Of a stretch of DNA of 64,000 nt, positions 1 through 20,475 are shown piece by piece. A program made the translations under genes and the position numbers. The notes beneath the pieces are model-generated. The model saw nothing but the letters and a program-made list of their open reading frames with translations, did no database searches and was not told the DNA's origin. Source of the DNA: Peredibacter starrii (GTDB lineage Bacteria; Bdellovibrionota; Bacteriovoracia; Bacteriovoracales; Bacteriovoracaceae); NCBI RefSeq assembly GCF_034259205.1, contig NZ_CP139487.1, forward strand, positions 496,001-560,000. Reading direction: 5' to 3'. Every line of letters begins with the position of its first letter. Position 1 is the first letter of the stretch.

Positions 1-584
1 TTCAGAAGTTCATTGTTGTGAATATTCACTACATAAGACCAATCGATGATTTTAGGAGAGTGGTTTTTGAAGTAGTCCAACGCCCACTTGTTGTCCTCCA
101 TATATTTGGTCTCTTTAGCGAGCATCTTTTTTGTGTTAAGCGGGACGAGAAATTCCAAAATCATTTTTTCCCGGAAGAGCTCATTGTTATCCAGAATGCT
201 AAACAGCTCCTTAAAGTGTTCGCGATTGAGATTATCAAACACACAAGCGGCCGTGATACGCGTCTTCTCGTTTAGCTGCAGGAGTTTTTGAAATGTCGGA
301 TGAAGCAGCACTTCTTTTGTATTGTGAGCACTAAAGAACTCAGTGGGGGCAAGAATGATTTCGCGAAAGCGAAGCCCTTCGCCGGCCAGGCCTTTAGCAA
401 TGGTATAAGCTCTCTCCAGGGCCTCTTCCCAATTATTTACATCTCGAACCTTCCGGACATAACAGCCTTCACAGGAATGGATACAGCCATTCAGGATATC
501 CAGACTCAGTACAAAATCCATGTTCTCAATATTATCAAGATTGGTTTTGGACATTTTTTCCAGGAAGTTGGTTTCAATTGTCAT
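1..584 (-). CDS. Radical SAM protein, paralog A (partial, cut by left edge)
   Basis: The first 194 residues are present; the 3' end lies outside the window. A CxxxCxxC cluster motif (C34, C38, C41; NGCIHSCEGC) marks a radical SAM [4Fe-4S] enzyme, and an APTEFF motif follows near residues 79-84. Both positions match the two genes just upstream (586-1707 and 1679-2776), so this is the third member of a tandem paralog set. Translation starts one base after the TGA of the preceding gene, with a GGAG about eight bases upstream of the ATG. Substrate unknown. Family assignment is from the motif and alignment by eye to its neighbours. Confidence 0.85.
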   Translation of the reverse strand, partial: MTIETNFLEKMSKTNLDNIENMDFVLSLDILNGCIHSCEGCYVRKVRDVNNWEEALERAYTIAKGLAGEGLRFREIILAPTEFFSAHNTKEVLLHPTFQKLLQLNEKTRITAACVFDNLNREHFKELFSILDNNELFREKMILEFLVPLNTKKMLAKETKYMEDNKWALDYFKNHSPKIIDWSYVVNIHNNELL

Positions 585-585
585 A

Positions 586-1707
586 TCAGTACTCCACTGT
601 TTTATACGAAGATCGATAAAGCTTTTTAGGTACCACACAACTCGTGATCTGATTCATTTTCATGAATTGAATATGGTTCCGGGAAACACAATTCGGTAGA
701 AACGGACAGCCCGCGCACTCAGGAAGGTCTTCGGCGTGAGCATATTGCTGAATAGTCAATTCTTCACGTTTCGCAAAGACATCACCCATATAAAAGCGAC
801 CATCTTCACGTGCTCTGATTTCCAGTTCCGGCTTTTTCAGGGCCACGAATTCATAAAAGTACGGGGCTATAAAAAGACGCCCATCGGTGTAAGAGAGAGG
901 GTGGAAAGTGTCCCCACCGAAATAAATATCAATCATGTTCATGAAAACATTTCGGATTTTGCTGTCATCAATCTGATTTTCAAGAAGATGGCTCAATGTT
1001 TTTGACTGCTTTTCAATTAAAGCTGCATTTTTGGCACGAGCAAAAGAAGGATTGATTTTAAATTTAGTACCGTAATCGGAGCGTATCCGGGCATTAAGCT
1101 CAGTGATACTGATATTGTCGAACATCTCTGGATAGAAATTTGCGATGAAAAAGATGTTTACCTGCTTCTTCAAGCGGCCATCAATATCAGCGATGACTTT
1201 CAGGTTTCGATCAAATTGTTCCAGATATTCTTTGTCGCCTGCGTGATACTTTTCAATATCCAGAATCACGAACAACTCGAATCTCTTTCCGTATGGGGCC
1301 ATGATATTGGAGAGTTTCTTTACCCGACGCTTTAATTCCTCATGTTCGGTCAACATGGTTGAAGTGAAAGTCAGGGCGGCATACTGCTCTACCAGGCGGT
1401 CAAATAGAGGAGCATCGACTAATTGATCGAAGTTACCGGCCTCAAAAATGTCAGTCGGGCCCAAAAAAAGTTCATTGGCATCAATTCCTTGATTCAAAAA
1501 CTCCTGAGTCAATATATGGATGTTTTCCAAATCCCGTGTGGTGAATTTGTTCTTTCTTTCCACAAAACATCCCGGACATTTCATGTCACATCCGTCCAGG
1601 ACATCAAAAATGATATCTAGTTCCACGGTTGGAGTGTATTTCAGTGGCTTCGTTCCGCTAATGTGCTTTCGATAAGCATCAAACAGCACGGCCATGGGCC
1701 TCTCCAT
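586..1707 (-). CDS. Radical SAM protein with C-terminal Cys cluster, paralog B
   Basis: A 373-residue radical SAM enzyme candidate. C40, C44 and C47 form the CxxxCxxC motif (DGCDMKCPGC). A LGPTDIF motif near residues 82-88 sits where many radical SAM enzymes have GGE. The C-terminus carries CxxC-x5-C-x16-C (C331, C334, C340, C357), like a SPASM or twitch domain that binds an auxiliary iron-sulfur cluster. The gene overlaps the end of paralog C by 29 bases; an alternative ATG at 1695, behind a GGAGAGG, would shorten the overlap. Known relatives with SPASM tails modify peptides or proteins, but the substrate here is unknown. Confidence 0.85.
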   Translation of the reverse strand: MERPMAVLFDAYRKHISGTKPLKYTPTVELDIIFDVLDGCDMKCPGCFVERKNKFTTRDLENIHILTQEFLNQGIDANELFLGPTDIFEAGNFDQLVDAPLFDRLVEQYAALTFTSTMLTEHEELKRRVKKLSNIMAPYGKRFELFVILDIEKYHAGDKEYLEQFDRNLKVIADIDGRLKKQVNIFFIANFYPEMFDNISITELNARIRSDYGTKFKINPSFARAKNAALIEKQSKTLSHLLENQIDDSKIRNVFMNMIDIYFGGDTFHPLSYTDGRLFIAPYFYEFVALKKPELEIRAREDGRFYMGDVFAKREELTIQQYAHAEDLPECAGCPFLPNCVSRNHIQFMKMNQITSCVVPKKLYRSSYKTVEY

Positions 1708-2776
1708 TTCCTAACCCCAAAAAGCAGTCTTTGATTTCGTTTGCTTCCATATAGGTCAGGACGTTTTTATAAGTGCAGGACACCAGATATTCACAGCCTT
1801 CACAGTGATTCGTTTTGGATGAATAGTTCATTTGTTTAACAAATGAGTTCTCCTTAGATTCTAAAAGATCAGACAATGTGTATTCCGATTGCTGCTTTTG
1901 AATTAAAAAGGAGTCTTCATAGGAAAAGACGTTTTCGTAGATGAAGGGACACAGATAGAAATTCCCTTCCCTAAAATTCACCACCAGATTATTCATACCG
2001 CTATGGCTTTTATTCACCATGGTGTAGGTGAAGTTATTAGCATTCTTAAGGCTGTTTTCCCGAATGGTTCTCATCCAGAATTTCAGGTTATCTTTTTGTT
2101 TTTGATGCTTAATTCGAAGGATCGAAGGGTTGAACTCTAAAATGGTGTCGAATTCGGCCTTAATCTCCTGGGCCAGTCTCGTTAAGTTATCCGGATTGTA
2201 TTTAATGAGATTTGCCGGATGAATATTGATCTGAAAGGCGGGATCAAATTCTAAGGATGACTCCTTCAGAATCTGCCATTTGCTCTTCATTTCCTGAAGG
2301 TACTGTTTATTGGTTAAGAATTCATCAATATCAGTGGCGATCAATAGATCAATATCCAGGTGACCGACACTTTCCTCCAGCACCTTGAGCTTTTGGCGAA
2401 TTTCTTCACCGCTGGCCTTAAGTGTAGAGGTCATTACGAATTTAGTGTCTTCGTTTTTAAAAAGGCGTTTAAAGGCCGGATGAGTGATGACTTCCAGGGT
2501 GTTTTTAGCGCTAAAAAAATCCGTAGGTCCCAGGGCTATTTCTTCCAAATGCAGATTACTGGCATTCACTTCATCTGCCAGGCGAGCAATGGTTTCCAGA
2601 TCGCGATTAAGATCATAGGAATTAATGCCTTTATTAACAAAGCATCCGGCACAGGTTTGTCCGCACCCATTTAAAAGATCGACATTCATGAAGACATAGA
2701 AATTGCTGGAGCGTTGAAGCTCCACATTTACATGTCCTGCAATGTTCATTCTCTCAAACAGGTTTTTTCTGATCAT
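1679..2776 (-). CDS. Radical SAM protein with C-terminal Cys cluster, paralog C
   Basis: A 365-residue protein with the radical SAM motif at C38, C42 and C45 (NGCGQTCAGC), a GPTDFF motif at about 83-88, and a C-terminal cluster C325, C328, C334, C351. The spacing of all three elements is nearly the same as in paralog B, so the two probably arose by tandem duplication and then diverged; most of the sequence between motifs differs. The start overlaps the 3' end of the upstream unknown gene by 23 bases, which fits translational coupling inside one operon. Function is inferred only as SAM-radical chemistry on an unknown substrate. Confidence 0.85.
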   Translation of the reverse strand: MIRKNLFERMNIAGHVNVELQRSSNFYVFMNVDLLNGCGQTCAGCFVNKGINSYDLNRDLETIARLADEVNASNLHLEEIALGPTDFFSAKNTLEVITHPAFKRLFKNEDTKFVMTSTLKASGEEIRQKLKVLEESVGHLDIDLLIATDIDEFLTNKQYLQEMKSKWQILKESSLEFDPAFQINIHPANLIKYNPDNLTRLAQEIKAEFDTILEFNPSILRIKHQKQKDNLKFWMRTIRENSLKNANNFTYTMVNKSHSGMNNLVVNFREGNFYLCPFIYENVFSYEDSFLIQKQQSEYTLSDLLESKENSFVKQMNYSSKTNHCEGCEYLVSCTYKNVLTYMEANEIKDCFLGLGNGEAHGRAV

Positions 2777-3509
2777 CAGTTTCCACCATTGGAATCTTAC
2801 CGTTTTTAATCTGAAGCATGATTCCCATCGAGAAATAGGCGAAGTGACTCAAATGTTTCTCTGTTGCAAGAAAGTTAATGAGTTTTTCACCGCCGTAAAT
2901 GTATTCATCGAAGTAGTAAGGAAAGTATGGATGCTGAAGTAGAGTCTTCATCTCGGTCGGATCAAAAAAGAGGCTCAGGAAATCAGGCAGGGCCAGCAGT
3001 TGACTGATGTTCACACCAATATTTGGAATTTTACCTTCCACTTTCGGATGATCCAGTTTCCATTGTTTGATTTCATCTTCACTATGGATCTTATTGGTCG
3101 ACATGATGAGGTAAAGCGGAATTGAATTAATAAGTCCGCACCACTGCTGGATCATTTCTTCATGGTTCACGATAAAGTTGGCATAGTTTTCTAATGAGAA
3201 GTGACTCTCAACATCTACATAAGGCATTCTTTGATATTTATAACCAAGAATAATATTGGCAATTATTTGCGGAAGATTAGTGGTTTCAATCACAAAATTG
3301 GCCGTCATGTACTCTTCCAGAACCGCAGGAGTGATGTTCCCAATTTCCGCCTTGATTCTCATATTACTCAGAGTCATGAAGCATTGTTTAGGTGTGATTC
3401 GGCTATTGGCCATATCAATACGGAACAGGATGCTCTTATCTTTGAAGTATTCAATCTGGTTTTGCGGTGACAAGGGAAGTGTCACATCTAATATGCGCTG
3501 ATTAGTCAT
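2754..3509 (-). CDS. Unknown protein of the radical SAM operon (251 aa)
   Basis: I do not recognise this protein. It is soluble-looking, with no signal peptide or convincing membrane segment and no iron-sulfur motif. Its start overlaps the stop of the gene upstream by eight bases, and its end overlaps paralog C, so it is co-translated with the radical SAM genes. Position between unknown gene 3502-4602 and the paralog set suggests a partner, for example a substrate-recognition or scaffold subunit; that is inference. The reading frame is supported by the tight overlaps and by absence of long competing frames. Confidence 0.75.
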   Translation of the reverse strand: MTNQRILDVTLPLSPQNQIEYFKDKSILFRIDMANSRITPKQCFMTLSNMRIKAEIGNITPAVLEEYMTANFVIETTNLPQIIANIILGYKYQRMPYVDVESHFSLENYANFIVNHEEMIQQWCGLINSIPLYLIMSTNKIHSEDEIKQWKLDHPKVEGKIPNIGVNISQLLALPDFLSLFFDPTEMKTLLQHPYFPYYFDEYIYGGEKLINFLATEKHLSHFAYFSMGIMLQIKNGKIPMVETDDQKKPV

Positions 3510-4602
3510 TTAAAACCACCTGGTCTTTGCGCGCTAATTTAACTGATACATAGTGAATTAACGTCGTATTCATCTTATTGGTGTATTCTTTGAAAAAATC
3601 GAGTTCATGGAGATTGGGTCCGGCACCACTCAAGATTTCATCCAGCGCCTTATCCTGATTTGGACCGTAGTAGACTTCCTGAATCTTTTTAAACTCATCA
3701 TAACTTGGAAATGGATCATGAGAGTCCAGATCATAGGCCTTAAGAAGGGACATAAGAAATTTAATTTCTTCCAGGCGTTCTTCCACCCAAGTCACATCCT
3801 TTGTACTGATGCGCTTTATGAAAAGACCATTTAATAGTTCGTCTTCTTCTAAAATGGGAACAATATCGTCGTAGGCCTCAATATCTATACCTTTAAAGTC
3901 CTTGAGGACTCTTGCATCGTTCAAAAGTGTTTCCAGACCGCTTTTAACCACCTGAATAAGGGACATGCCTACCATGTAGGATTTCAGGCTTTGAAACTTT
4001 GCCTTAAGTTCCTGTTTGGATATCTTTCCATGAGCATAAAACAAAAATACATATTCAAAAGGTAGGCTCACAATAGTTTTATCTTTGAACAGGAGATCAC
4101 ACTCTGGAATTTCTCCAATATCATCTTTAAAGGCCCTGTACAATTCTACGCTTAGATTCAAACGCTTATTGTCCCAAATCCAAAACCGCTCATTGGTTTT
4201 CTTGATAATACTTCGGAGAATTTCATGGCTGAGACCAAAGGTCTGATCAATTTGAACCAGAGAATATAGGAAAAAGGGGACCATCGTGTCGTAGCCGACA
4301 TAGATTTTAATCGCGTTGTCTTTTTCTGAATGGAGAAGATTTGCCAGTCCTCCGTATTCTCTTTGCGCATGCTTAATAAATTCAAAAAAGTCTCCGGCGT
4401 TAAAGAGCGGAGCGAAATGGGAAAAGGTAATGTCTTTCCAGTACTCGCCAATATAAATACTGGCGCTTGTTGGATGGGGATCAATGTGTGCTCTTGCACG
4501 TGAGACACAGATATAGTGTTTATCCAAAATATTTAGATAAAGCATGGCATGGTTATAGCCATGAACCGGCAGTAGCTCTACGGCTGGTTTATCTTCACTC
4601 AC
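3502..4602 (-). CDS. Unknown protein of the radical SAM operon (366 aa)
   Basis: Unrecognised, rich in charged and aromatic residues, no signal peptide, no Cys cluster motif. I choose the GTG at 4602 over the TTG at 4629: the GTG shares one base with the TAG stop of the upstream gene (TAGTG) and has an AGGA about nine bases upstream, while the TTG would force a 28-base overlap. It is followed with an eight-base overlap by another unknown gene. Being embedded between a candidate substrate and three radical SAM paralogs, it may be a partner or carrier protein. No function can be assigned from sequence alone. Confidence 0.75.
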   Translation of the reverse strand: MSEDKPAVELLPVHGYNHAMLYLNILDKHYICVSRARAHIDPHPTSASIYIGEYWKDITFSHFAPLFNAGDFFEFIKHAQREYGGLANLLHSEKDNAIKIYVGYDTMVPFFLYSLVQIDQTFGLSHEILRSIIKKTNERFWIWDNKRLNLSVELYRAFKDDIGEIPECDLLFKDKTIVSLPFEYVFLFYAHGKISKQELKAKFQSLKSYMVGMSLIQVVKSGLETLLNDARVLKDFKGIDIEAYDDIVPILEEDELLNGLFIKRISTKDVTWVEERLEEIKFLMSLLKAYDLDSHDPFPSYDEFKKIQEVYYGPNQDKALDEILSGAGPNLHELDFFKEYTNKMNTTLIHYVSVKLARKDQVVLND

Positions 4603-5168
4603 TATCTTCTTCCTCTCGAAGCGTGACAAGGAGGTGGTGTAGGAACATTGGTATGACAGTAATTAAAAGTACCATCCAGACGGTTAGAAAAGTGTTCCAC
4701 AATTTTTGCCCACACTTCCGAGTCTGCCACTGAAGTTATAAAGTTATCATCACCGATTCTCACTCCTGGTGCCCCGTTAAAATTAAGAATGTAGTTAATT
4801 TCATCTGGATTTGCGATGTATGAGGTCCTTGAAATATCTGCCCAATAGGCCTTAACGGTTTTTGAAGAAGGAGGGGCACCTTCAAACACAATGTTGAAAG
4901 TTCTTAGAACAGCATAAGTTCTAACCAGCGTGTGAATATAGGCCCTGACCGCGCCTGAGTTATTGATACTTCCAACTGGAAAAGGGTTTGCGGGTTGAGT
5001 CGGATAGTATGCCGTGGTGATTTGCCAAACTCCGCCAAAATAATAACCGGAGTTTTGAGCATCGATGAAATCGGCGGTCACCATCCCGTTGGCACGGGCC
5101 ACAGTGTAGTTATGGTCAAACCTAAGTTTGGTCAAAAGAGAAGCATAGTTAAAACGTTCACCTGCCAT
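4602..5168 (-). CDS. Unknown 188-aa protein, candidate substrate of the radical SAM operon
   Basis: Unrecognised protein rich in Tyr, Asn, Thr and Ala, with no signal peptide. Its only cysteines are in the C-terminal tail: C171 and C181 flank a TNVPTPPP stretch, followed by HASRGRR. The ATG has a good AGGA six bases upstream. Unlike every other gene of this operon it is separated from the gene before it (29 bases) and has its own near-consensus promoter (5188-5217). A strongly expressed small protein with a distinct Cys/Pro tail among six radical SAM enzymes fits a modified substrate; that role is inference. It could also be a structural or regulatory partner. Confidence 0.75.
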   Translation of the reverse strand: MAGERFNYASLLTKLRFDHNYTVARANGMVTADFIDAQNSGYYFGGVWQITTAYYPTQPANPFPVGSINNSGAVRAYIHTLVRTYAVLRTFNIVFEGAPPSSKTVKAYWADISRTSYIANPDEINYILNFNGAPGVRIGDDNFITSVADSEVWAKIVEHFSNRLDGTFNYCHTNVPTPPPCHASRGRR

Positions 5169-5187
5169 AAATTCCTCGCATGACTAA

Positions 5188-5217
5188 ATTATATTGCCTA
5201 TTTTGCGAGAGAGTCAA
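5188..5217 (-). promoter_or_regulatory. Sigma-70 type promoter inside the operon, in front of the 188-aa gene
   Basis: Reading the minus strand, TTGACT (5217-5212) and a perfect TATAAT (5193-5188) are separated by 18 bases. The predicted start lies near 5181, giving a leader of about 12 bases that includes the AGGA ribosome site of the 188-aa gene. The promoter overlaps the last codons of the upstream radical SAM gene. It is the best promoter match in the first 10 kb. Confidence 0.65.
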
Positions 5218-6238
5218 AAAACCGCTTATTAACACAACCTTTAGATCGCACTCTGTCCTTCCATGACCAGGAAACTGGGCATCTTAAGGGACAGCTTTGA
5301 TAGTACTCGCAACTTAAACATTGATTTTCTTCGATAAAGCGATAGAGCATGTTGGAATTGTCCTGATAATTTACCTCTGTGACAAAGCTCTCTGGGGGGT
5401 GTCTTTCCCATAAATAGTTGGTGACCTTATTATTGGGAAGAATGTTGCATTTATTGAATGTCGTGAATTGGATTTCGTTCGGAGACTGGGTCAACACTTT
5501 TGAAATCGCCTCACCAAATGGCAGGAGTTTTGGATATTTTTTGACAACTAACTCCAAATACTCCAGATACTCTTCATCACTTGGAATCATGCGACTGGTT
5601 TCTACATCTGGTAAAAAGTCGTCCATGAATATGGGAAATTCCTGGTAGAGCCGGTCAAATTGCTCATTTCCCTTTTTAAGTTCCCGAATGGCCTCTTTTG
5701 TTACGACCACATTGATATTTGAAATGAATTGCCGAAAGATTTTAAGGTTTAAGAAGTACTGCTTAGTTAAGGGGCGTCCAAAAGGATCAAAGGAAGCAAT
5801 TAATCGTACGAACACCGTTTCGTTAAGTTTTTCGAGCCACTTGATGACCACATCTGACTTGGTGGTAAGCATGTTACTCACCAGGATTATTCTGGGTTCA
5901 ATCTGACGTCTTTCACAGATTCGTTGATACTCAGAAATCAAAAGTTCATAGCGAGCGAGGAAATCATCAACTCCATCAATAAGTCGGTCCTGTAAAAGTT
6001 CTCCTCCTACCAGGTGGAGGTTCACCATTTCGACATCCGAATCAATTTCATCCAAAAAGTTTTCAATTAAAGGAATTTTAGACAGCATCTCCTCAGTTTT
6101 CATCCCGATGACCGAGCTTTTCTCATGGGCGCAAAACGTGCAATTCACATCGCAGTTTTCGAACAAAGTGAGTTCGATTTCCGCCACGCGGGGCTTTTTG
6201 TTACCCAAAACTGTTTTTAGATATCCTAAGGTATCCAT
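5198..6238 (-). CDS. Radical SAM/SPASM-like protein (346 aa)
   Basis: Radical SAM motif at C29, C33 and C36 (CDVNCTFC), followed by a GGE-type motif (LVGGELLQ) and a C-terminal cysteine cluster (C307, C310, C316, C320, C335) typical of SPASM-like auxiliary cluster domains. A longer frame opens at 6331, but I place the start at the ATG at 6238. It has AAGGA just upstream and overlaps the previous gene by only 13 bases, whereas the longer version would overlap by more than 100. The gene directly precedes the candidate substrate gene. It is not close to the A/B/C paralogs and keeps the GGE motif they lack. Confidence 0.85.
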   Translation of the reverse strand: MDTLGYLKTVLGNKKPRVAEIELTLFENCDVNCTFCAHEKSSVIGMKTEEMLSKIPLIENFLDEIDSDVEMVNLHLVGGELLQDRLIDGVDDFLARYELLISEYQRICERRQIEPRIILVSNMLTTKSDVVIKWLEKLNETVFVRLIASFDPFGRPLTKQYFLNLKIFRQFISNINVVVTKEAIRELKKGNEQFDRLYQEFPIFMDDFLPDVETSRMIPSDEEYLEYLELVVKKYPKLLPFGEAISKVLTQSPNEIQFTTFNKCNILPNNKVTNYLWERHPPESFVTEVNYQDNSNMLYRFIEENQCLSCEYYQSCPLRCPVSWSWKDRVRSKGCVNKRFFDSLAK

Positions 6239-6678
6239 GTGTTCCTTGGGAGAGTTTGCAGCCCCTCTGGATCTAACATGTATTCCTGACGAATAAGCCG
6301 ATGAGTGATCGCCATTCGCGGACTTTCCCAAACAATCTTTTCTCGAGGCACAAGCTTCAGGATTTCATCATAAGTACTTTTGTCTTCCTGATAGGTCTTG
6401 AAGAAGGGATCATTTCCATGCATGAGTTCTGGATTGTTTAGAACGGAGAAGAAGTCTTCATTGAACTCTCGGGCAATGAAATCGGCCACCGCAATGGCCA
6501 CTGCTCGGGCGGCCCCGGGAAATTTTAAATAGGAACTCCCGTCCAGGAGGTATGTTACAGCATCTTTAACGACAGAGGACTCGTGTATGCCATAGTCAAA
6601 GTTCTTGTGCTCGTCTTCAAAAGACTCATGTCCGTGCATCTGATAAAAAACCGTCCGGCGGTATTCAAATTCTTTCAT
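6226..6678 (-). CDS. Unknown 150-aa protein of the radical SAM operon
   Basis: A small protein with no cysteines, a His/Glu/Asp-rich N-terminus and a central Ala-rich helix (about residues 55-70). I recognise no family. It starts by a four-base ATGA overlap with the radical SAM gene before it and ends inside the next one, so it is translationally coupled on both sides. The size and absence of cysteines would suit a small partner protein such as a peptide-binding chaperone, but nothing in the sequence proves that. Confidence 0.75.
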   Translation of the reverse strand: MKEFEYRRTVFYQMHGHESFEDEHKNFDYGIHESSVVKDAVTYLLDGSSYLKFPGAARAVAIAVADFIAREFNEDFFSVLNNPELMHGNDPFFKTYQEDKSTYDEILKLVPREKIVWESPRMAITHRLIRQEYMLDPEGLQTLPRNTWIP

Positions 6679-7790
6679 ACCTTACCGCCCGTTTTTTCAT
6701 AGTAATCATCGTTCATGATTTCAATGTTCGGTTCCTCATAATTGATACGAAGAATATCGGAGGCAATGGCCTTCATATTGGAACAATGCTCTTCCGCCAT
6801 TCCAGAGGTCTTCATGTCTTTAACGTGTTTTCGGCAGCCGTTACAAATTTGGAACATTTCACATGAGTAGCATTCCATTTTAATGGCATCGATTTGGATA
6901 TCATCCTGAAGGGGAGTGAAAAATTTGTTCTTTCTGACTTCTTGGTCAAAATCAATTTCATATTCCCTATCATCACCAAAGGACCCACAGCTGAAATATT
7001 TCCCGTCCGGTTGAAGTAATCTGATGCCTTCATCGCAACTGCGGTGAAGTGGACAAATCGTTAACCGGGTCTTAGTCAGTCGATTGGCCATCTGGCGGGT
7101 GTTCCACTCATGTTGAGCAAGTCCCTCATTCCAGATTTGAATATAAATTTGGTAAACATAGGCGAGGGGTAGGGGCTCTTTACACTCACCACTCATATTG
7201 GCGTAGTTAATTTTGCAATCAACTCCCAGGCGTTTTGCCAGGCGGACCGTATCCAGAGCGGTGTGAAGATTGTTTTTTTCAATGACCGCGATAAAAGAGG
7301 GGCGATAGCCCACTTTCTCCAGCATTAAATCCGAAATTTTAATGAAATCTTCTTCAGAAAAAACTCGGCCCGGTCGAATGAGTCTTCCTTCCCCGTATTG
7401 AAAGGAAGTCCCCACTCTCACGATTGGGTGTCTGAAGAGTTTGGTCCAGGCCTTTTCCGGTAAATCATTCTCCCACTCAAGCCAAAACTTCCAGAGATTA
7501 GTCGTGATAGAAATGATGGTAGGGTAGTTATTTTTCTCAATGTGTTCAATCAGCTGCCAATAGTAGTTAACTGGCATCATGGTGGGATCCCCACCGTTCA
7601 CAATGATAGTTTGCGTATTGGGAAAGCGCTGGAGGAACTCATAAATGGTTTCAAGATGGAGAGTCAGTTTTTTATCATCCACCAGATGAGTAGAACTACA
7701 AAAAGTGCAGGCGAAGTTACAGGCCTCCGTGGGCTTGATAATCAAGTCCATAGTTCTCGGATCCTGTTGAATAACTTCACTCGTTTTCAT
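6675..7790 (-). CDS. Radical SAM/SPASM protein (371 aa)
   Basis: C24, C28 and C31 (CNFACTFC) bind the SAM cluster; NGGDPTMM is the GGE-like SAM-binding motif. The C-terminal third carries many cysteines (CPLHRSC, then SCGSFG, then CYSCxxxxxCNGC and a final Cys). This order is typical of SPASM domains with two auxiliary clusters, as in anaerobic sulfatase-maturating and peptide-modifying enzymes. It overlaps the oxygenase gene before it and the 150-aa gene after it by four bases each. It is the most complete SPASM-type enzyme of the set. Confidence 0.88.
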   Translation of the reverse strand: MKTSEVIQQDPRTMDLIIKPTEACNFACTFCSSTHLVDDKKLTLHLETIYEFLQRFPNTQTIIVNGGDPTMMPVNYYWQLIEHIEKNNYPTIISITTNLWKFWLEWENDLPEKAWTKLFRHPIVRVGTSFQYGEGRLIRPGRVFSEEDFIKISDLMLEKVGYRPSFIAVIEKNNLHTALDTVRLAKRLGVDCKINYANMSGECKEPLPLAYVYQIYIQIWNEGLAQHEWNTRQMANRLTKTRLTICPLHRSCDEGIRLLQPDGKYFSCGSFGDDREYEIDFDQEVRKNKFFTPLQDDIQIDAIKMECYSCEMFQICNGCRKHVKDMKTSGMAEEHCSNMKAIASDILRINYEEPNIEIMNDDYYEKTGGKV

Positions 7791-8398
7791 AGCTTTAAGT
7801 CTATTGGTAAATCGAAAATCTCATATTGTTTTGAAATCGTAAGATCCTGAGGCCACACCCCAAACCCCAAATGAACTGATGCCTTTTCGCCTGCTTTTGC
7901 GCGATGGCGGGCCCCATAGGGAATATAGAGAATCGTGCCTTCTTTTAATAAATGGCCACTGATACTCTGATCTGGTTCTTCAACTTCAAAATACTTCTCA
8001 CCTTTTTGCATTATCACGTACACGTCACGGTCGTCCGTGTGCCATCCAAAACCTGAAGCATGAGGAGGAGAAAGATAGAGGTGCACATTGGTAGGAAGCT
8101 TAAAACCAGCACATTTTTTTATAATGGCTTCATTCCAGTTTTCCACCTCTTTAATGACAATAGTGTTTCCTTTCTTATAGGCCTCTTCCAGTAATTTAAT
8201 TCTTTCCGGTACGATGCCGTAATTAAAGGTGCGGGTATCATCATAAGTGCCTTCAGCGCTCACAATGAAATGAGAGTGTTGATCATGTAGATATTCATTG
8301 CGAAGCATGTTTAAAACGTCTGCCTCATCAATAAGGCGAGTTTCTTCAGTCTTCGCTTCGATTAATTTGGAGAAGACCTGAAAATTTTTAAATTCCAT
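7787..8398 (-). CDS. JmjC/cupin-type Fe(II) oxygenase-like protein (203 aa)
   Basis: The C-terminal half shows a cupin/JmjC pattern: H120 and D122 (GWHTDD) and H165 (IPYGARH), the usual 2-His-1-Asp iron ligands, with a GTILYIPYG strand before the last His. Known relatives, such as the RoxA/YcfD and MINA53 group, hydroxylate proteins using 2-oxoglutarate. I use the ATG at 8398 (AAGGAG nine bases upstream) in place of the TTG at 8425. It overlaps the preceding radical SAM gene by 11 bases and the next by four. An oxygenase among six radical SAM enzymes suggests several successive modifications of one target; that is inference. Confidence 0.8.
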   Translation of the reverse strand: MEFKNFQVFSKLIEAKTEETRLIDEADVLNMLRNEYLHDQHSHFIVSAEGTYDDTRTFNYGIVPERIKLLEEAYKKGNTIVIKEVENWNEAIIKKCAGFKLPTNVHLYLSPPHASGFGWHTDDRDVYVIMQKGEKYFEVEEPDQSISGHLLKEGTILYIPYGARHRAKAGEKASVHLGFGVWPQDLTISKQYEIFDLPIDLKL

Positions 8399-9488
8399 GG
8401 GGTCCGTCTCCTTTGGCGCCGACAATGAGCTTTTTATAAGATGGAATATCGTTATCTCTTATCATCTGCTGCCAGATTTTTTTAGGAGCTGAACAGTAAT
8501 TGGTTTCTTTGTCCCAGGGAAGTTTATTGCAATCACTGTTACAGTACTCAAAGGCCTCGCACTTATAACATTCTTCCGGTCGATCCAGGCTTTCGCATGC
8601 GATTGCTTTAATTCTCTTTTCTGCCTTCAGGCTTTGAAGCACCGGCCATTCGATGTGACCCCAATGTTCAGAAGGTGCTGTATTAGGGCAGCCCCCAATG
8701 GTTCCATCAGCATTAATCGTAATGAGACTCTGCTCACACATTCTACAGCGATTAGCAGTGTGTTCATGATTAACATAGGCCCGGGCAAGCTCTGACATCA
8801 ACATATTGCCGATGTATTCATATGTTTTGTATTCAAGGCTCTGGTTGAACATGCGATGCAGCCATTCGTCCTGCTTTTGATTAGAAGGAAGAATACTTTC
8901 ATTGGTTTTGGCATTTCCGTCAGATGTGATCCTTTCAAAGAGGATATTCTGAAAACCAAGGCCTTTGGCATATTCGATGATTTCAATAGGTTCTTTTTCT
9001 TCAATGAGGTTCTTGGTAATCGAAACAATCATCGTGATGTAGTGCCCATCACGAATCAGGGTTTTGACGTTATTTTCCCAAAGTTCTTTTTGAGATTCAG
9101 AGGTAAATCTGATGTCATAGTCCCAGGAAGTACCGAAGCCTTCAGTCAAAAACACTTCTTTAATAAAGTTTCTTCTCTCCGGAGTGAGATGATAGGCAAG
9201 ATTGGTTTGAAGAGAGAACTGGGTTTCCGGGAAAATATTCTTCAGACCGTGATAGGCCTCGTACAGGTCCTCCATCGGGGCCAGAAGTGGCTCGCCTCCA
9301 TGGAACATGTAGCGGATGCTTTTGATCCAACCGCATTCTTGTTTTAGTCTTTCAAAAAAAGAGATGGTTTTTTTTGGTGAGAAAAAGATTTTTTTGCCAT
9401 TGGTACCGCTCGTAAAACAATGCTTACAATTTAAATTACAAGTCTCAGTTGTTTTTAAATAGACGCTTACGTTTGCGGCAAGAATCAT
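8388..9488 (-). CDS. Radical SAM/SPASM protein (366 aa)
   Basis: C17, C21 and C24 (CNLNCKHC) with FHGGEPLL, the classic SAM-binding GGEP motif, are followed by a SPASM-type Cys region (CRMC, GGCPN, CYKCxxxxYCNSDC and a late Cys). This is the most canonical radical SAM/SPASM member of the operon and resembles peptide-maturation enzymes. Its ATG shares one base with the stop of the membrane-anchored gene upstream (TAATG). The product probably carries one SAM cluster and up to two auxiliary clusters. Confidence 0.88.
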   Translation of the reverse strand: MILAANVSVYLKTTETCNLNCKHCFTSGTNGKKIFFSPKKTISFFERLKQECGWIKSIRYMFHGGEPLLAPMEDLYEAYHGLKNIFPETQFSLQTNLAYHLTPERRNFIKEVFLTEGFGTSWDYDIRFTSESQKELWENNVKTLIRDGHYITMIVSITKNLIEEKEPIEIIEYAKGLGFQNILFERITSDGNAKTNESILPSNQKQDEWLHRMFNQSLEYKTYEYIGNMLMSELARAYVNHEHTANRCRMCEQSLITINADGTIGGCPNTAPSEHWGHIEWPVLQSLKAEKRIKAIACESLDRPEECYKCEAFEYCNSDCNKLPWDKETNYCSAPKKIWQQMIRDNDIPSYKKLIVGAKGDGPHGI

Positions 9489-10042
9489 TAGAGTTTTCTC
9501 TCCATCTCAGCCGCCTTCTTTGCCTCATATAGATCATCAATGAATTTTCTCACTTCTTTTGCCTTTGCCGGGCTGCCTTTTTCGTACTCAGCTTCGTTTC
9601 TTAAATACTGGTCACTTTGTTGGACCAGATGATCAAACTGATCCTGCGAATATTTCGCCAAAAGGCGGTTCTTTAATAGTGGAGCGTAGTCATGAAGGTC
9701 ATCAAGCTTATCTTCTAGAATGACCGGTCTTGGAGATTGTTCCGGAATTTTCGCCCATTCAGGAGTCGGAGGAGCAACCGATGGAGTCGCTTGAGTAGTT
9801 TGTTCAGTACTAGGGCGGACAACCGGCTCTGCTGGTACTTCTGCGGGTGTCCCCGGCGTTGTTTCTGTTACCGCTATCGGCGCTGTTGGTTCCACTGGTT
9901 TTACGACCTCAGGTTGAGGATTCGTATTTTTAGGAATGACGTAGGGCTTGGGCTGTTCTTTGCTTTGTGCCTGCGGTTTCGGTCTGAAGAACCAGAACAA
10001 TCCACCCATAACGATAAAAAACAAAATTAAGCGAAGATGCAT
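9488..10042 (-). CDS. Membrane-anchored proline-rich protein, first gene of the operon
   Basis: A 184-residue protein with one N-terminal hydrophobic segment (about residues 3-18, no clear cleavage site), then a Pro/Glu/Thr-rich linker of roughly 85 residues and a charged helical C-terminal domain of about 75. This is the layout of an inner-membrane-anchored protein with its soluble domain beyond a flexible linker. I choose the ATG at 10042 (GAGAG upstream); an ATG at 10069 would put extra residues before the membrane segment. Leading the operon, it could tether the machinery or product to the envelope. Confidence 0.7.
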   Translation of the reverse strand: MHLRLILFFIVMGGLFWFFRPKPQAQSKEQPKPYVIPKNTNPQPEVVKPVEPTAPIAVTETTPGTPAEVPAEPVVRPSTEQTTQATPSVAPPTPEWAKIPEQSPRPVILEDKLDDLHDYAPLLKNRLLAKYSQDQFDHLVQQSDQYLRNEAEYEKGSPAKAKEVRKFIDDLYEAKKAAEMERKL

Positions 10043-10090
10043 ATTCACACTCTCAATTTCAAAGGTCATATGATCGCTACCGATGTTTAA

Positions 10091-10116: not shown

Positions 10117-10476
10117 TTAGCTTAGGTGCCAATTATTAGAGTCAGAATTATAGGTAAGCTTAATTATTGCTAAGGTATCAAGCCTAAGTGGCTCAGGTTT
10201 CCCGAGGATGCAATTTTCATAGTACTCTATTACCGAAGAGTTTCTCACAATGATATGGACGTGATCATTATCCTTTGGCCGAAATGGAAGTTCGATTAGA
10301 GTGTCTTCTTCCGTTGAATAGACCTCCCCATTTCGTAGTGTTTTTATCTTCTTTTTCCTTCGAAACTTTTTAACAGGGACAATCTGATCGATGTTTGAGT
10401 TAAAAGCTTGAGTATTCGGCATTACGCTGATTACTGCGACTGCGATGATCGAATATAAGAGCTCTCTTCTATTCAT
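10117..10476 (-). CDS. Small secreted protein (119 aa)
   Basis: The N-terminus is a signal peptide (MNRREL, a hydrophobic stretch, then cleavage probably after NTQA). The mature part has a very basic patch (FRRKKKIK, near residues 40-47) and no recognised domain. I take the ATG at 10476; the one at 10494 lies inside the GCCGATAA element and has no ribosome site. Position between the radical SAM operon and the pilin-like gene does not reveal a role. Confidence 0.7.
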   Translation of the reverse strand: MNRRELLYSIIAVAVISVMPNTQAFNSNIDQIVPVKKFRRKKKIKTLRNGEVYSTEEDTLIELPFRPKDNDHVHIIVRNSSVIEYYENCILGKPEPLRLDTLAIIKLTYNSDSNNWHLS

Positions 10477-10484
10477 ACCTGATC

Positions 10485-10513
10485 TTATCGGCATAATTGT
10501 TCATAAAGTTTTA
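10485..10513 (-). promoter_or_regulatory. Sigma-28 (FliA)-like promoter before the small secreted protein
   Basis: An exact GCCGATAA (10492-10485, minus strand), the consensus -10 of FliA-type sigma factors, has a TAAA 17 bases upstream (10513-10510; consensus spacing is 15). The -10 ends 8 bases before the ATG at 10476, so the transcript would be almost leaderless. The same arrangement occurs in front of three other secreted-protein genes in this window. Confidence 0.45.
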
Positions 10514-10574
10514 ATACTTTTTAATTTCTCACTTATAATAGTTTATAACTGATATAAATCAAGGGTACGTACTT

Positions 10575-11705
10575 ATGTGGTCTAATAAACAAAGTGGGTT
10601 CTCGCTTCTTGAAATTATGGTGGCTTCAGCTTTACTAGGGGGACTTGCCCTTGCCGGTGCCAAATTAATGGAAAACCAAACCAAAAATATGAAGACAGTT
10701 GAAGTACGTGGTGAGTACCAGGCCGTACTGACTGATATTCGAAGTATTCTTGCAGTCGCTGAAAATTGTCGATCTACCTTTAATGGAATCAACTTATCCA
10801 CGCCCTCGATCGCGGCCCCTGCCTCTCAACGAATTATTTCTCTTGCGCCTGACAACTCCCCTCAACCTAGATATCAGGCCAACTCCAACTGGCGCTTGGC
10901 CCAAGCATACGGGAACGGGCAAGTCAGAATTCTCTCCTATCGAATTACAACATCCCCAGATCCCTCTGATCCTGAAATTGGAATTCCCGCTGCTGCTCCT
11001 GCACCTCCGGCAACGACTAAATTAGGTGCAGTCAATCTACATGTTACTTTTCACTTCGGTGAAGGCCGAACTGTAGGTGCAGAAACGATCGAAAGAAAAA
11101 TCCGCTTAAATGTAGAAGTAAATGCTGCGAACACTTTAGTTGGATGTACTTCAACTGGAGGACTTGGATGGGACGCTAGATACATTTGGCGAGTAGGAGG
11201 AACGGCCGGAGTGATGACAGGTAATCTTACCATGTCGAATAATGCATTAATTATTCTCCAGGCCGGATCTTCTTTGGTTGCTCAAAATGGAACTTCAATC
11301 GTTATGCAAGATTCATCCGTCATCGATTTTACCTCTGACCAAAAATTCAAATACGATGTACGTGATCTAAATGGACTTTTACCTAAGATCAGAGAAACCA
11401 GACCCGTAAGATATAAATGGAAATCAAACAATAAAGAAGCTTACGGTGTTATCGCTCAAGAGTTACAGGAAATTTTCCCTGAACTCGTGAGAAGAAAGGG
11501 TCCCAACAATTCACTTACTGTAGATTATATTCAGTTGACCCCTCTCTTGCTTCAGGGTCTGAAAGAAATGGATATCGAAAACAAAGTACTAAAAAGCACA
11601 ATTAAAGAACTCAAAAATGAGCAGGTCAGAATGCAAGGTGATCTGGAGAATTTGAAAAAGATGATCTGTAAAAACAATCAATCAAAAGAATGCTTTAATC
11701 AGTGA
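10575..11705 (+). CDS. Type IV pilin-like protein with C-terminal Peptidase S74 domain
   Basis: The N-terminus is a class III prepilin signal: cleavage after G8, methylated F9, E13 at mature position +5, then a hydrophobic helix. A central domain of about 200 residues follows. From about residue 250 there is an S74 intramolecular chaperone signature: SDQKFK (S254, K259), GVIAQELQEIFPELV near 291-305, and a C-terminal coiled coil. S74 domains drive trimerisation of phage tail spikes and then cut themselves off, using a Ser-Lys dyad. Fusion to a minor-pilin N-terminus suggests a pilus-exposed fibre. The gene is followed at eight bases by its companion. Confidence 0.88.
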   Translation: MWSNKQSGFSLLEIMVASALLGGLALAGAKLMENQTKNMKTVEVRGEYQAVLTDIRSILAVAENCRSTFNGINLSTPSIAAPASQRIISLAPDNSPQPRYQANSNWRLAQAYGNGQVRILSYRITTSPDPSDPEIGIPAAAPAPPATTKLGAVNLHVTFHFGEGRTVGAETIERKIRLNVEVNAANTLVGCTSTGGLGWDARYIWRVGGTAGVMTGNLTMSNNALIILQAGSSLVAQNGTSIVMQDSSVIDFTSDQKFKYDVRDLNGLLPKIRETRPVRYKWKSNNKEAYGVIAQELQEIFPELVRRKGPNNSLTVDYIQLTPLLLQGLKEMDIENKVLKSTIKELKNEQVRMQGDLENLKKMICKNNQSKECFNQ

Positions 11706-11713
11706 GGTGAAAT

Positions 11714-12298
11714 ATGGGACGCTTATCAAATCGACTTTATAAAATTGAATTTGGTGGAGTCGGGGCCAGTGGACTTCAAATAACGAGAGCCACCTGGGGG
11801 GGAGGCGTCTCTGTACCGGCAGAAGATCCGAACGGAGGTTATCTTTATTCCAATGTTGATTTCATCGCTCCGAGAGTCTGGAACGCAGTCTGGAACGACA
11901 TCGCTGACTATCAACTTCTCTGCGACAAATTAGAGTATGGAAAATGCTACTTCGATACCAAAGATGGGGCGAAGATTTGTAATGAACGCTGCCAGATGAG
12001 TGTGATAGGTATTGCTTCTGATACTTTTGGGTATGGTGTAGGTCGAGGTGGAAATAATTCTGAAGTTCCTATTGGTGTAGCAGGATGGGTTCTCGCTTAC
12101 GTAGATCAAGAGTATGAATGTGGCACTCCTCTCACAAATGATGAGTTCGGGAACCTCACCGCCATGACGAAACAAGAGAAAATGGAATACCCGGAACGCA
12201 TTGTTGGTATCTACAAGCGCAAAGAAATGGAAAATTTCTGGGGACCTGAAGGTCAAAAGATTGAAGTTAAAGGCCGACATTGGGTGAAAATAAAGTAG
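11714..12298 (+). CDS. Unknown protein paired with the pilin-S74 gene
   Basis: A 194-residue protein rich in Gly, Trp and Tyr with no signal peptide, starting eight bases after the pilin-S74 gene with a GGTGA ribosome site. The last 70 residues (a YVDQEYE segment, then VGIYKRKE and a final GRHWVKI) loosely resemble the ends of phage tail or Peptidase G2-type autoproteolytic domains; this is a weak by-eye resemblance. Six cysteines lie mostly in the middle and could form disulfides. Probably works with the upstream pilin-like protein. Confidence 0.7.
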   Translation: MGRLSNRLYKIEFGGVGASGLQITRATWGGGVSVPAEDPNGGYLYSNVDFIAPRVWNAVWNDIADYQLLCDKLEYGKCYFDTKDGAKICNERCQMSVIGIASDTFGYGVGRGGNNSEVPIGVAGWVLAYVDQEYECGTPLTNDEFGNLTAMTKQEKMEYPERIVGIYKRKEMENFWGPEGQKIEVKGRHWVKIK

Positions 12299-12829: not shown

Positions 12830-14364
<1,535 letters not shown>

Positions 14365-14389
14365 TTAAAGGAAAACCTTATAGGGTCAA

Positions 14390-14425
14390 TCAATCGAACG
14401 CGGTTCCATTCATCATCATCTCATC
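14390..14425 (+). other. 16S processing stem (3' arm)
   Basis: The segment CAATCGAACGCGGTTCCATT and the following CATCATCATCTCATC are complementary, with a few bulges, to the leader at 12652-12681. The two arms enclose 16S and would be the RNase III substrate. Confidence 0.65.
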
Positions 14426-14490
14426 ATAAAAATAAGAGAAATTGAAAATTCATAGGGTACTTACCAGTCTCTATGATCCTAGTTTAAAAA

Positions 14491-14568
14491 TGGGATTGTA
14501 GCTCAGGTGGTTAGAGTACGTCCCTGATAAGGACGGGGTCGCAAGTTCGAGTCTTGCCAGTCCCACCA
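14491..14568 (+). tRNA. tRNA-Ile (GAU)
   Basis: A 78-base cloverleaf with encoded CCA. Acceptor TGGGATT pairs with AGTCCCA and the anticodon loop CTGATAA gives GAU. It is the only tRNA in the 16S-23S spacer, where Ile and Ala usually occur together. Confidence 0.97.
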
Positions 14569-14590
14569 TTTTTGAACTTCAGTTTCTTTC

Positions 14591-14643
14591 GTTCTTTGAC
14601 AATCACATAACAGGATAAGCAAGCAGACGAGAACCATGTAGTA
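14591..14643 (+). other. Second boxA-like site and 23S processing stem (5' arm)
   Basis: GTTCTTTGACAA (14591-14602) repeats the boxA-like motif of the leader, as is common before 23S. The following ACAGGATAAGCAAG and GAACCATGTAGT (14609-14643) pair with 17640-17678 behind 23S to form the processing stem. Confidence 0.65.
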
Positions 14644-14677
14644 ATTTTTTTTAAAAGAATCCATGCTAAAAAACTAA

Positions 14678-17598
<2,921 letters not shown>

Positions 17599-18033: not shown

Positions 18034-20475
18034 ATGGAAAAAAAAATCTTAAAAGTTCAATTATACTCTCTATTTATTCTCACAACTTTGAATCTGATCT
18101 ACTTCTATTATCGCGATAATCTTCCTGATAATTATTATGAGATCACGTATCAAAACCATTCGATCAATTTCTTCACTTACTATTTCTTCACTCTATTAGC
18201 TAACTTTGGTTACTGGTGTGGGATTTGGGTAACAGTTTCTTTTATTACTTTCGCCATTCTTCATACGTTTGTTCTTACTAAGAAGAAAGACGTTAAAAAT
18301 CAAATCGTTATCGCTGCACTTCTACCTTTAACTCTTGGTCTTTGCTATCTGCTTATGCCGGAATCTTTAGGTGAAGGTTTAATGTTTCTCATCAAAGAAA
18401 ACCTAAGTCTACTGAGCGTATTCTCATCAGTTCTTATATTTGGTGCTGCATTTTTCTATCTCGTTTCAGAGAAAAACTTCTTCAAAACTTGTCGCTTTAT
18501 CTGGAAGCAAATGGTGACTATCGGAACAATGATTAAAGAAGCAGATTATTCTGCGCTTAAATCAATTGAACCTAAGAAATGGCCGATGGCCATTAGAGAG
18601 CGTGCTATGGAACTTCTGGCCCGCTTTAAGAAAGAAGAAGAGCTTGCTCCTGCCAAAGCAGCGACCACTCCTAAAAAACTAAAAATTACTGAATCTCCTA
18701 AAATCAAAGAAGCTCCAGCTCAGAGAAGTCTTCCAGTAGAAGAGCCACCAGTGGCGGAAGAAATTGAAGAGGAAGAGATTGAAGAAGAGGAAGTAGAGGA
18801 ATTAGAAGAGGACGAAGAAGAAATCGTTGATGAGTCTGAAGAAGAATTCAATGATTCAGTTGATGAAGTAGTCGATGAAGAATCCGAAGAGGAAGAAGAC
18901 TCTGAGGAATCAGACGAAGAGCTTGAAGAAGTTGAAAGTCCGTTTGTTAAAAAGAAAGTTCAAGCTGAAGATACTTTCTTTGAGGCTGAAGAACTTATTA
19001 ACTGTATTGTTGCAAAAAATCAGGCCAACAAGATCAGTGATCCATCTGATACTTACTTCCAGACAATTGCGAGAGCGATTGAAGAGAAGCTTAAAGAATT
19101 CAACATTTCTGCCAGCGTAATTAATGTTCTGAAAGGGCCAGTAGTAGATACTTTCGAACTTGAACTTGGCGCTGGTGTAAAAGTTGCGGGTGTTACAAAT
19201 CGTGTAGACGATCTTTCACTTGCTCTAATGGGTGCTCCGATTCGTATGGTTTATCCGATGAAAGGAAAATCAACGATTGGTATCGAAGTTCCTCGTAATC
19301 CTCGTGATGTGATTTACCTGGATGAAGTTCTTCGTGCTCCAAACTTTAATAACTCAAGCTACAAGCTTCCAATCGCCATGGGTAAAGATGCTTACGGTGA
19401 TGCAGCCGTGATTGACCTTGCATCGACTCCGCACTTACTGGTTGCGGGTACAACTGGTGCCGGTAAGTCAGTATTCGTTAACACGCTTCTAGTTTCGCTT
19501 ATTATTAAGTTTTCGCCGAAGAAACTACGTCTCATTATGCTGGATCCGAAACAGCTTGAATTGGCGCTATATCAGCGTCTACCGCATTTGATTATGCCAG
19601 TTGTAACTGATCCTTCGGTTGCATCAGCAGCGCTCCTGTGGGCAATTGATGAGATGGAGAGACGTTACTCGCTTCTTAAAGACTTCGCGGTGAAAAATAT
19701 CGAAGGCTTTAACAAGAAAGTTGTAGGGGCAGGAACAGATCTTACTTGTCGAATTACTAAGTATTATCCAGATGCTGAAGTTGTTGGTTTCGAACTTCCA
19801 TATATCGTTGTGGTAGTGGATGAGTTCGCAGATCTTATGCTTTCTAAGTCTGGTAAAGCAATTGAGACATCGATTTCTAGACTTGCGGCCAAAGCACGTG
19901 CTTCTGGTATTCACATCGTGCTTGCAACTCAACGTCCATCTACTGACATCATTACCGGTGTTATTAAAGCGAACTTCCCGACACGTGTATCTTTCCGAGT
20001 GTTCACGAACATCGATTCACGCGTAATCTTGGATGGTGTGGGAGCTGAGAAACTACTGGGTAAGGGGGACATGCTCTTTAAACAAGGTATCGATATTCTC
20101 CGTATGCACTCGGCCTTTGTGAACGAAGAAGAAATTGAAGCACTAGTTGATAAGCTCGCTACTCTTCCAATCCAATACGATACGGGTGCCATGGAGTTCC
20201 TGGATAGTAACGGAACTGTTGATACTGATGTTGAAGGCATCACTATGGACGGCGAGGGCGGCGGTCTAAAAGACGAAAAATATGATGAAGCTGTTCGTTG
20301 TGTTGCAATGCATCGAGTGGCAAGTGCCTCATTCCTTCAAAGAAGACTTGGTGTTGGCTATAACCGAGCTGCTAACTTGATTGAAGAAATGGAGCGTCAT
20401 GGTGTGGTAGGGCCTGCTCAAGGGTCTAAACCACGGAAAGTTCTAGTGCCTCCACCTGCTGATTCTACCCCTTAA
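18034..20475 (+). CDS. ftsK: DNA translocase FtsK/SpoIIIE family
   Basis: An 813-residue septal DNA motor that clears and aligns chromosome ends at division. The N-terminus has four membrane helices, followed by a very acidic linker (long Glu/Asp runs, about residues 225-310) and the motor: Walker A GTTGAGKS at 472-479 and Walker B VVVDEFADL. A C-terminal winged-helix gamma domain (MHRVASASFLQRRLGVGYNR) reads KOPS sequences. I use the ATG at 18034; a GTG at 17977 only adds a non-conserved extension and lies in the promoter. The gene follows the rRNA operon but has its own promoter. Confidence 0.95.
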   Translation: MEKKILKVQLYSLFILTTLNLIYFYYRDNLPDNYYEITYQNHSINFFTYYFFTLLANFGYWCGIWVTVSFITFAILHTFVLTKKKDVKNQIVIAALLPLTLGLCYLLMPESLGEGLMFLIKENLSLLSVFSSVLIFGAAFFYLVSEKNFFKTCRFIWKQMVTIGTMIKEADYSALKSIEPKKWPMAIRERAMELLARFKKEEELAPAKAATTPKKLKITESPKIKEAPAQRSLPVEEPPVAEEIEEEEIEEEEVEELEEDEEEIVDESEEEFNDSVDEVVDEESEEEEDSEESDEELEEVESPFVKKKVQAEDTFFEAEELINCIVAKNQANKISDPSDTYFQTIARAIEEKLKEFNISASVINVLKGPVVDTFELELGAGVKVAGVTNRVDDLSLALMGAPIRMVYPMKGKSTIGIEVPRNPRDVIYLDEVLRAPNFNNSSYKLPIAMGKDAYGDAAVIDLASTPHLLVAGTTGAGKSVFVNTLLVSLIIKFSPKKLRLIMLDPKQLELALYQRLPHLIMPVVTDPSVASAALLWAIDEMERRYSLLKDFAVKNIEGFNKKVVGAGTDLTCRITKYYPDAEVVGFELPYIVVVVDEFADLMLSKSGKAIETSISRLAAKARASGIHIVLATQRPSTDIITGVIKANFPTRVSFRVFTNIDSRVILDGVGAEKLLGKGDMLFKQGIDILRMHSAFVNEEEIEALVDKLATLPIQYDTGAMEFLDSNGTVDTDVEGITMDGEGGGLKDEKYDEAVRCVAMHRVASASFLQRRLGVGYNRAANLIEEMERHGVVGPAQGSKPRKVLVPPPADSTP

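Follow-up and report, generated by a model that had tools for sequence, protein, structure and literature searches.

The operon described here lies at the left end of a 64,000-nucleotide stretch of the Peredibacter starrii genome (the window: positions 496001-560000 of NZ_CP139487.1, a single contig of 4.15 Mb). It includes twelve genes, labelled A to L, which run on the minus strand from position 10069 to the window edge, where the operon is cut, and a thirteenth, M, just outside the window. We consider it probable that genes B to M, several of which encode radical S-adenosylmethionine (SAM) enzymes, constitute a maturation system, probably derived from phages, whose target is the Cys/His/Ser tail of the gene G product, which would be a displayed protein associated with fibres. 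The system works like the radical SAM maturation of ribosomally synthesized and post-translationally modified peptides (RiPPs), and falls outside the named families with which it was compared.

Gene G (4602..5168, minus strand) encodes a putative substrate of 188 amino acids, made of a variable N-terminal domain and a conserved C-terminal tail (CHTNVPTPPPCHASRGRR, residues 171-188; codons at 4605..4658, minus strand), which fits the idea put forward in the preliminary description of this DNA that the target would be of protein size rather than a short peptide. The tail is almost invariant in the genus, reading YCHGNFPPPCHGSRGRR in four congeners and YCHTNVPTPPPCHASRGRR in the window; its middle unit is FPPP in this genus, VPTPPP in the window. 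Identity to the congeneric proteins ranges from 55 to 79% for B-F and H-M, and from 30 to 38% for G. Because the tail hardly varies, whereas divergence of the N-terminal domain is far quicker than that of the enzymes, we regard it as likely that the tail of G is the substrate. At the DNA level, the pattern CHxSRGRR-stop gave one match per genome in the six genomes tested, always corresponding to G in the five congeners; in a distant genome (G204) the match is a protein ending in CHCSCHSSCHVSRGRR, which adjoins homologues of D, J/L and M. Phage G proteins usually end in CHxS-CHxS-CHxS-RGRR, exactly at the C-terminus, and three CHxx units followed by RxRR, again exactly terminal, were present in 58 of 68 distinct G proteins. 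In these 58 tails Cys and His never vary, nor do the Arg at -4, -2 and -1, and the fourth position of the unit is mostly Ser. Among 6722 open reading frames (ORFs), the spaced motif occurred exclusively at the C-terminus and never in reverse, and a search for the tail letters in open-licence papers yielded nothing relevant.

The connection with phages, absent from the preliminary description, emerged from several searches. E and I match PHROG phage families (phrog_20737 and phrog_20767, function not assigned), tblastn retrieved jumbo phages infecting Burkholderia glumae (SURPRISE13, FLC6, FLC8) and Sinorhizobium (Phosso), and, with D as query, also Agrobacterium phage Atu_ph07 and Pseudomonas phage pPa_SNUABM_DT01, so that isolated jumbo phages of four host genera have the set. 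In SURPRISE13 there are homologues of B, C, D, E, F, H, I, J and M, plus gp072, which ends in CHSSCHTSCHGSRGRR; the set in Phosso resembles it and includes a protein ending in CHTSCHASCHSSRSRR. Scanning IMG/VR with D gave 262 relatives, of which 80 were kept, and only 19 were found with D in 84,980 species genomes. The gene order C-B-G-I-H-F-D-M-E recurs across 104 loci, with D in 103, M in 89, B in 84, E in 83, F in 82, I in 80, G in 78, H in 74, C in 63 and J in 27; these counts are lower bounds, as contig ends cut some loci, and the loci were picked by D with near-duplicates included, so that they are not independent samples. A second IMG/VR search, done with DNA of the three-unit tail and independent of the enzymes, gave 80 fetched loci, all of which have an ORF with the tail at its end. 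One or more core genes accompany it in 78 of them, and in the other two the tail is close to the end of the stored DNA. Homologues scattered without a conserved neighbourhood, which the preliminary description had named as contrary evidence, were thus not what we observed. It is because gene order is kept in about 100 loci, and because a search with the tail alone leads to core genes, that we favour a maturation system; as in RiPPs, the C-terminal motif of the precursor is genetically tied to the maturases. The abundance of the system in phages suggests that it originated there. Some contigs labelled as Euryarchaeota or Bacteroidetes metagenome-assembled genomes match IMG/VR viral contigs in layout and G coordinates (loci L037/L084 and L038/L110), and are likely to be of phage origin, binned together with cellular sequences.

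In four other species of the genus, genes B to L are found in identical order, with M next to them in opposite orientation, M being flipped in P. starrii relative to its congeners; H is present in five genomes of the genus, this one counted. The permanence of B to M orthologues together in four further species is far beyond chance. Gene A (9488-10069, minus strand), a membrane-anchored Pro-rich protein, had been taken in the preliminary description for a member of the system. It has no counterpart in the four congeneric loci, being wedged between X3 (see below) and B in this genome only, and was rejected.

With respect to the enzymes, the CX3CX2C motif and C-terminal Cys clusters are present in B, D, F, J, K and L, the six radical SAM genes initially recognized. 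No member of the operon reaches a curated NCBIfam family cut-off apart from that of the general SPASM domain (B, 27.7 bits, cut-off 27), in line with the initial view of a modification system of several radical SAM enzymes without a matching curated family. The best named matches of B are peptide maturases, far under their cut-offs (PapB, NF047865, 53 of 340 bits; TIGR04115, 25.5 of 350). The nearest solved relative of D is anSME, an enzyme that oxidises Cys or Ser. C, previously described as an Fe(II) oxygenase-like protein, does match JmjC_2 (PF08007; 47.8 bits, gathering score 22), its enzyme activity being a prediction; the phage C proteins match Cupin_2 and JmjC_2. The nearest solved relative of C, with low identity and over a short stretch, is NO66, a histidyl hydroxylase. 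The residues targeted by anSME and NO66, namely Cys, Ser and His, coincide with the fixed residues of the tail, which is suggestive rather than evidence of a reaction. Both anSME and the NO66/MINA-type ribosomal oxygenases resemble the present case in that they modify side chains of large proteins, but each works as a single enzyme, on sulfatases or ribosomal proteins, and their identity to D and C is low.

Structure models of G were compared. The AlphaFold2 model of a phage G (L111, 40 sequences) was confident, with a predicted local distance difference test (pLDDT) score of 88.8 that drops only towards the ends, including the tail. Foldseek found nothing at E 0.001 among solved structures, further structure comparison nothing at Z 2, and the G profile nothing significant among PDB sequences; with no solved-structure match, the fold therefore gives no function. 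Among viral models, the phage G model matched six uncharacterised phage proteins, one of them a 296-residue protein of Atu_ph07 (the length of gp170). The model of the window G was of low confidence (pLDDT 65.7) and shows before the tail the same order of elements as phage G (helix, two strands, helix, strand); the top five viral matches of the window model fall within the set matched by phage G (best E 2.6e-4), a likeness not fully independent since the alignment behind the model contained phage sequences. Comparison of tail-less profiles links the G of Bacteriovorax (L043) with phage G at 98%. From these models, the N-terminal domains of window and phage G are probably homologous.

These data bear on a different outcome, in which the system would produce a classical RiPP, the tail being modified, cleaved and released as a small molecule with an antibacterial, metal-binding or signalling role. 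RiPPs typically involve radical SAM/SPASM enzymes and repeated Cys motifs, and the maturase matches of B point the same way, albeit far under cut-off. Ranthipeptide and CXXX-repeat systems (PapB, TIGR04115) share with this one a substrate with Cys every fourth residue, and B aligns with PapB over most of its length. However, G is a large folded protein, and the maturase cut-offs are far off. The tail is preceded by a domain of 100-280 residues, confidently modelled and fast-varying, features not expected of a leader. A secreted peptide would be of no obvious use to lytic jumbo phages that have the set beside tail genes. The preliminary description had seen no transporter, protease or short precursor gene; the first two were likewise not seen in the conserved set, whereas a precursor-like gene with a repeated motif, G, does lie in the middle of the operon. 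Altogether, a released natural product appears improbable, and we retain modification of the tail on the intact G protein.

The genomic surroundings of the set provide indications on where G may act. In four isolated phages, a large gene directly upstream of C-B-G matches tail-fibre or virion-structure PHROGs. The G homologue of Atu_ph07, gp170, is the first gene of CDS 170-215, one of the three clusters that, in the published virion mass spectrometry, hold most virion proteins (PMC6102473); since the cluster begins at gp170, this suggests that gp170 was detected in the virion. In the bacterial form, three neighbours upstream of the operon (10117-12298) are conserved together with it: X3 (10117..10494, minus strand), a small protein with an N-terminal signal-like stretch; X1 (10575..11705, plus strand), of 376 amino acids, with an N_methyl pilin-type N-terminus and an S74 fibre chaperone domain (54 bits versus 22) with the SDxxxK motif as SDQKFK; and X2 (11714..12298, plus strand), a conserved 194-amino-acid protein with no function assigned. 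The pilin-like S74 fibre neighbours had not been considered in the preliminary description. Among 358 Bdellovibrionota genomes, X2 is present in 20, D in 18 and both in 15 (P ~1e-19, ignoring phylogeny), and the two genes are located near each other in several families of this group. In Bdellovibrio bacteriovorus, fibres with the S74 domain are involved in recognising prey (PMC10769870). X1 shares with the MAT chimeric fibres of that bacterium the S74 domain with SDxxxK, and differs from them in its short length and pilin-type start; radical SAM enzymes are not mentioned in that paper. Because of the fibre and virion PHROG neighbours, the gp170 cluster and the linkage with X1 and X2, we lean, with less assurance than for the substrate, towards a G protein that is displayed or part of the virion. 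Other leads were dropped: the similarity seen by eye between X2 and the C-terminal fibre domain of Phosso gp292 received 0.2% from hhalign, and a tailocin or contractile injection system was discarded, as a sheath gene of PF04984, the sheath family searched, is absent from the genome and present in three control genomes. Ralstonia phage RP31, for which virion proteomics exists (PMC5468394), was not among the matches of the B, D and M searches.

The high conservation of X2 and its tie to the bacterial form could also mean that the radical SAM enzymes target X2, a fibre protein or nucleotides, with G as a chaperone or adaptor whose tail only docks the enzymes. In relation to nucleotides, the authors of the report on phage S13 assign the DHFR genes of the cluster to pyrimidine synthesis (PMC11898562). 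The tail, however, is common to phage and bacterial loci, while no X2 relative was found in phage loci, and DHFR genes occur, among the 104 loci, only in the Burkholderia phage, for which reason DHFR was rejected as a conserved part of the set. We judge this arrangement unlikely, and keep G as the probable substrate. In SURPRISE13 (L029), two DHFR-like and two further uncharacterised genes lie inside the set (14001-15178 and 18271-19517); relatives of the uncharacterised pair (ox83) are found in about half of the loci.

Several loci depart from the usual tail. Five units are present in L060. Viral G proteins ending in CHGSI or CHGSL without RGRR were found in L051, L067, L068, L080 and L081; F, M and E were not detected in these loci, where the system may thus have a reduced form. 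In L041, L045, L116 and many tail-pattern loci (e.g. L208, L255), the long G is replaced by a tandem pair of short G genes (about 125-137 amino acids), and the gene order differs (G-G-J-I-J-C-B-D-M-E-F). Two G proteins of Bdellovibrionota have three-residue His-x-Ser repeats: that of L178 (4283-4918), with HSS repeats and a single Cys, ends in CHSSHSSHSSHSSRGRR, and that of L170 (7507-8169) in YCHSNHCSHSNHGSRGRR. These tails may possibly be a bridge to the His-Xaa-Ser (HXS) system, in which HxsA/HxsA2 are accompanied by the radical SAM enzymes HxsB and HxsC (Haft and Basu; named in PMC9062424). In both systems radical SAM enzymes adjoin a protein with repeated His-x-Ser units; here, unlike in HXS, Cys precedes His in nearly all units, the end is RGRR, and five to seven radical SAM enzymes are accompanied by an oxygenase and by H, I and E. 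The precursors of the window, SURPRISE13, Phosso and G204 gave no match at the cut-off for HxsA-type repeat proteins. That the system is a divergent branch of HXS is the least probable of the alternatives, for the H-x-S-rich tails and the best HxsA2 score (L178, 23.9 bits) are set against a cut-off of 48, scores of 33.3 out of 267.9 bits for D as HxsC and 21.5 out of 370 for phage M as HxsB, no HxsD match, and five or more radical SAM enzymes compared with two in HXS.

On this basis, G would be synthesized as a folded, variable N-terminal domain followed by a short tail in which CHxS units lead up to RGRR. H, I and E, which lack enzyme signatures, could hold or present the tail, on whose Cys, His and Ser side chains the radical SAM enzymes B, D, F, M and J/K/L would act successively, introducing cross-links or oxidations, while the oxygenase C would hydroxylate one tail residue, most likely His. 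The product would be the whole G protein rather than an excised peptide, which in phages would be incorporated in the virion, within its tail/fibre region, and in Bdellovibrionota displayed alongside X1 and X2. The specific chemistry of the steps, like their order, is doubtful. More specifically, the system may represent an undescribed class of protein modification encoded by phages, in which at least five radical SAM enzymes of large phages act on a virion tail/fibre protein and make its C-terminal (CHxS)n-RGRR tail a tip that is cross-linked, oxidised or metal-binding, and which Bdellovibrionota took over for their own surface fibres, although we rate this version slightly below even. Several points weigh against the proposal. 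The modification of the tail is a prediction from the genes; the middle CH unit is absent in this genus though all the enzymes are kept; and at some loci the tail lacks RGRR or has few Cys. Phage loci yielded no X2, and the presence of gp170 in the virion was read off a cluster boundary given in the text of the report. Finally, profile comparison without the tail detected no relationship between the N-terminal domains of window and phage G, which are linked through structure models only, that of the window being weak.

The remaining genes complete the picture of the locus, all of them on the minus strand. B (8388..9488) is a radical SAM/SPASM-like enzyme whose phage homologue adjoins G; C (7787..8425) is a JmjC_2/cupin oxygenase-like protein with a likely start at the ATG at 8398; D (6675..7790), another radical SAM/SPASM-like enzyme, is the most conserved member; E (6226..6678) is conserved; and F (5198..6331) is a divergent radical SAM enzyme whose ORF starts at TTG, the ATG at 6238 being likelier. 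H (3502..4629) is a conserved protein with no Pfam match and I (2754..3509) is also conserved, and they are followed by three paralogous divergent radical SAM enzymes, J (1679..2776), K (586..1707) and L (1..638). L, cut by the window edge, is completed at genome positions 495505-496638 (L002:13505-14638), and M, a seventh radical SAM relative missing from the preliminary description, is located at 494557-495501 (L002:12557-13501); M is followed by an unrelated set of cytochrome genes on the opposite strand. The twelve-gene run with overlaps initially described holds for the minus strand from 10069 to the edge, with adjacent genes overlapping by about 1-29 bases if the likeliest starts are assumed, but not for the F/G gap of 29 bases nor for K/L, spaced by about one base, and the operon continues to M. 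The cluster motif of M in this genus is CX6CX3C (CNFRNGKCAETC), relatives elsewhere having CX3CX2C (CNFRCxFC); the spacing is conserved in five species and is therefore no sequencing error.

Phages with many radical SAM genes have been reported previously, among them a TARA contig with 12 (PMC5332604), Aeromonas phage 332-Vera, with eight (PMC12390700), and Burkholderia phages FLC6 and S13. FLC6 and S13 carry exactly the gene set described here, and the TARA contig and 332-Vera may do so. In the open-licence literature, papers on such phages list the genes and name neither a substrate nor the tail. These phages, in which the purpose of the enzymes has been puzzling in several papers, now gain a concrete candidate substrate, G with its Cys-His-x-Ser tail. 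If the proposal is true, it would add a large new set of peptide-modifying enzymes, and radical chemistry would enter the building of virions and perhaps that of the fibres of predatory bacteria.

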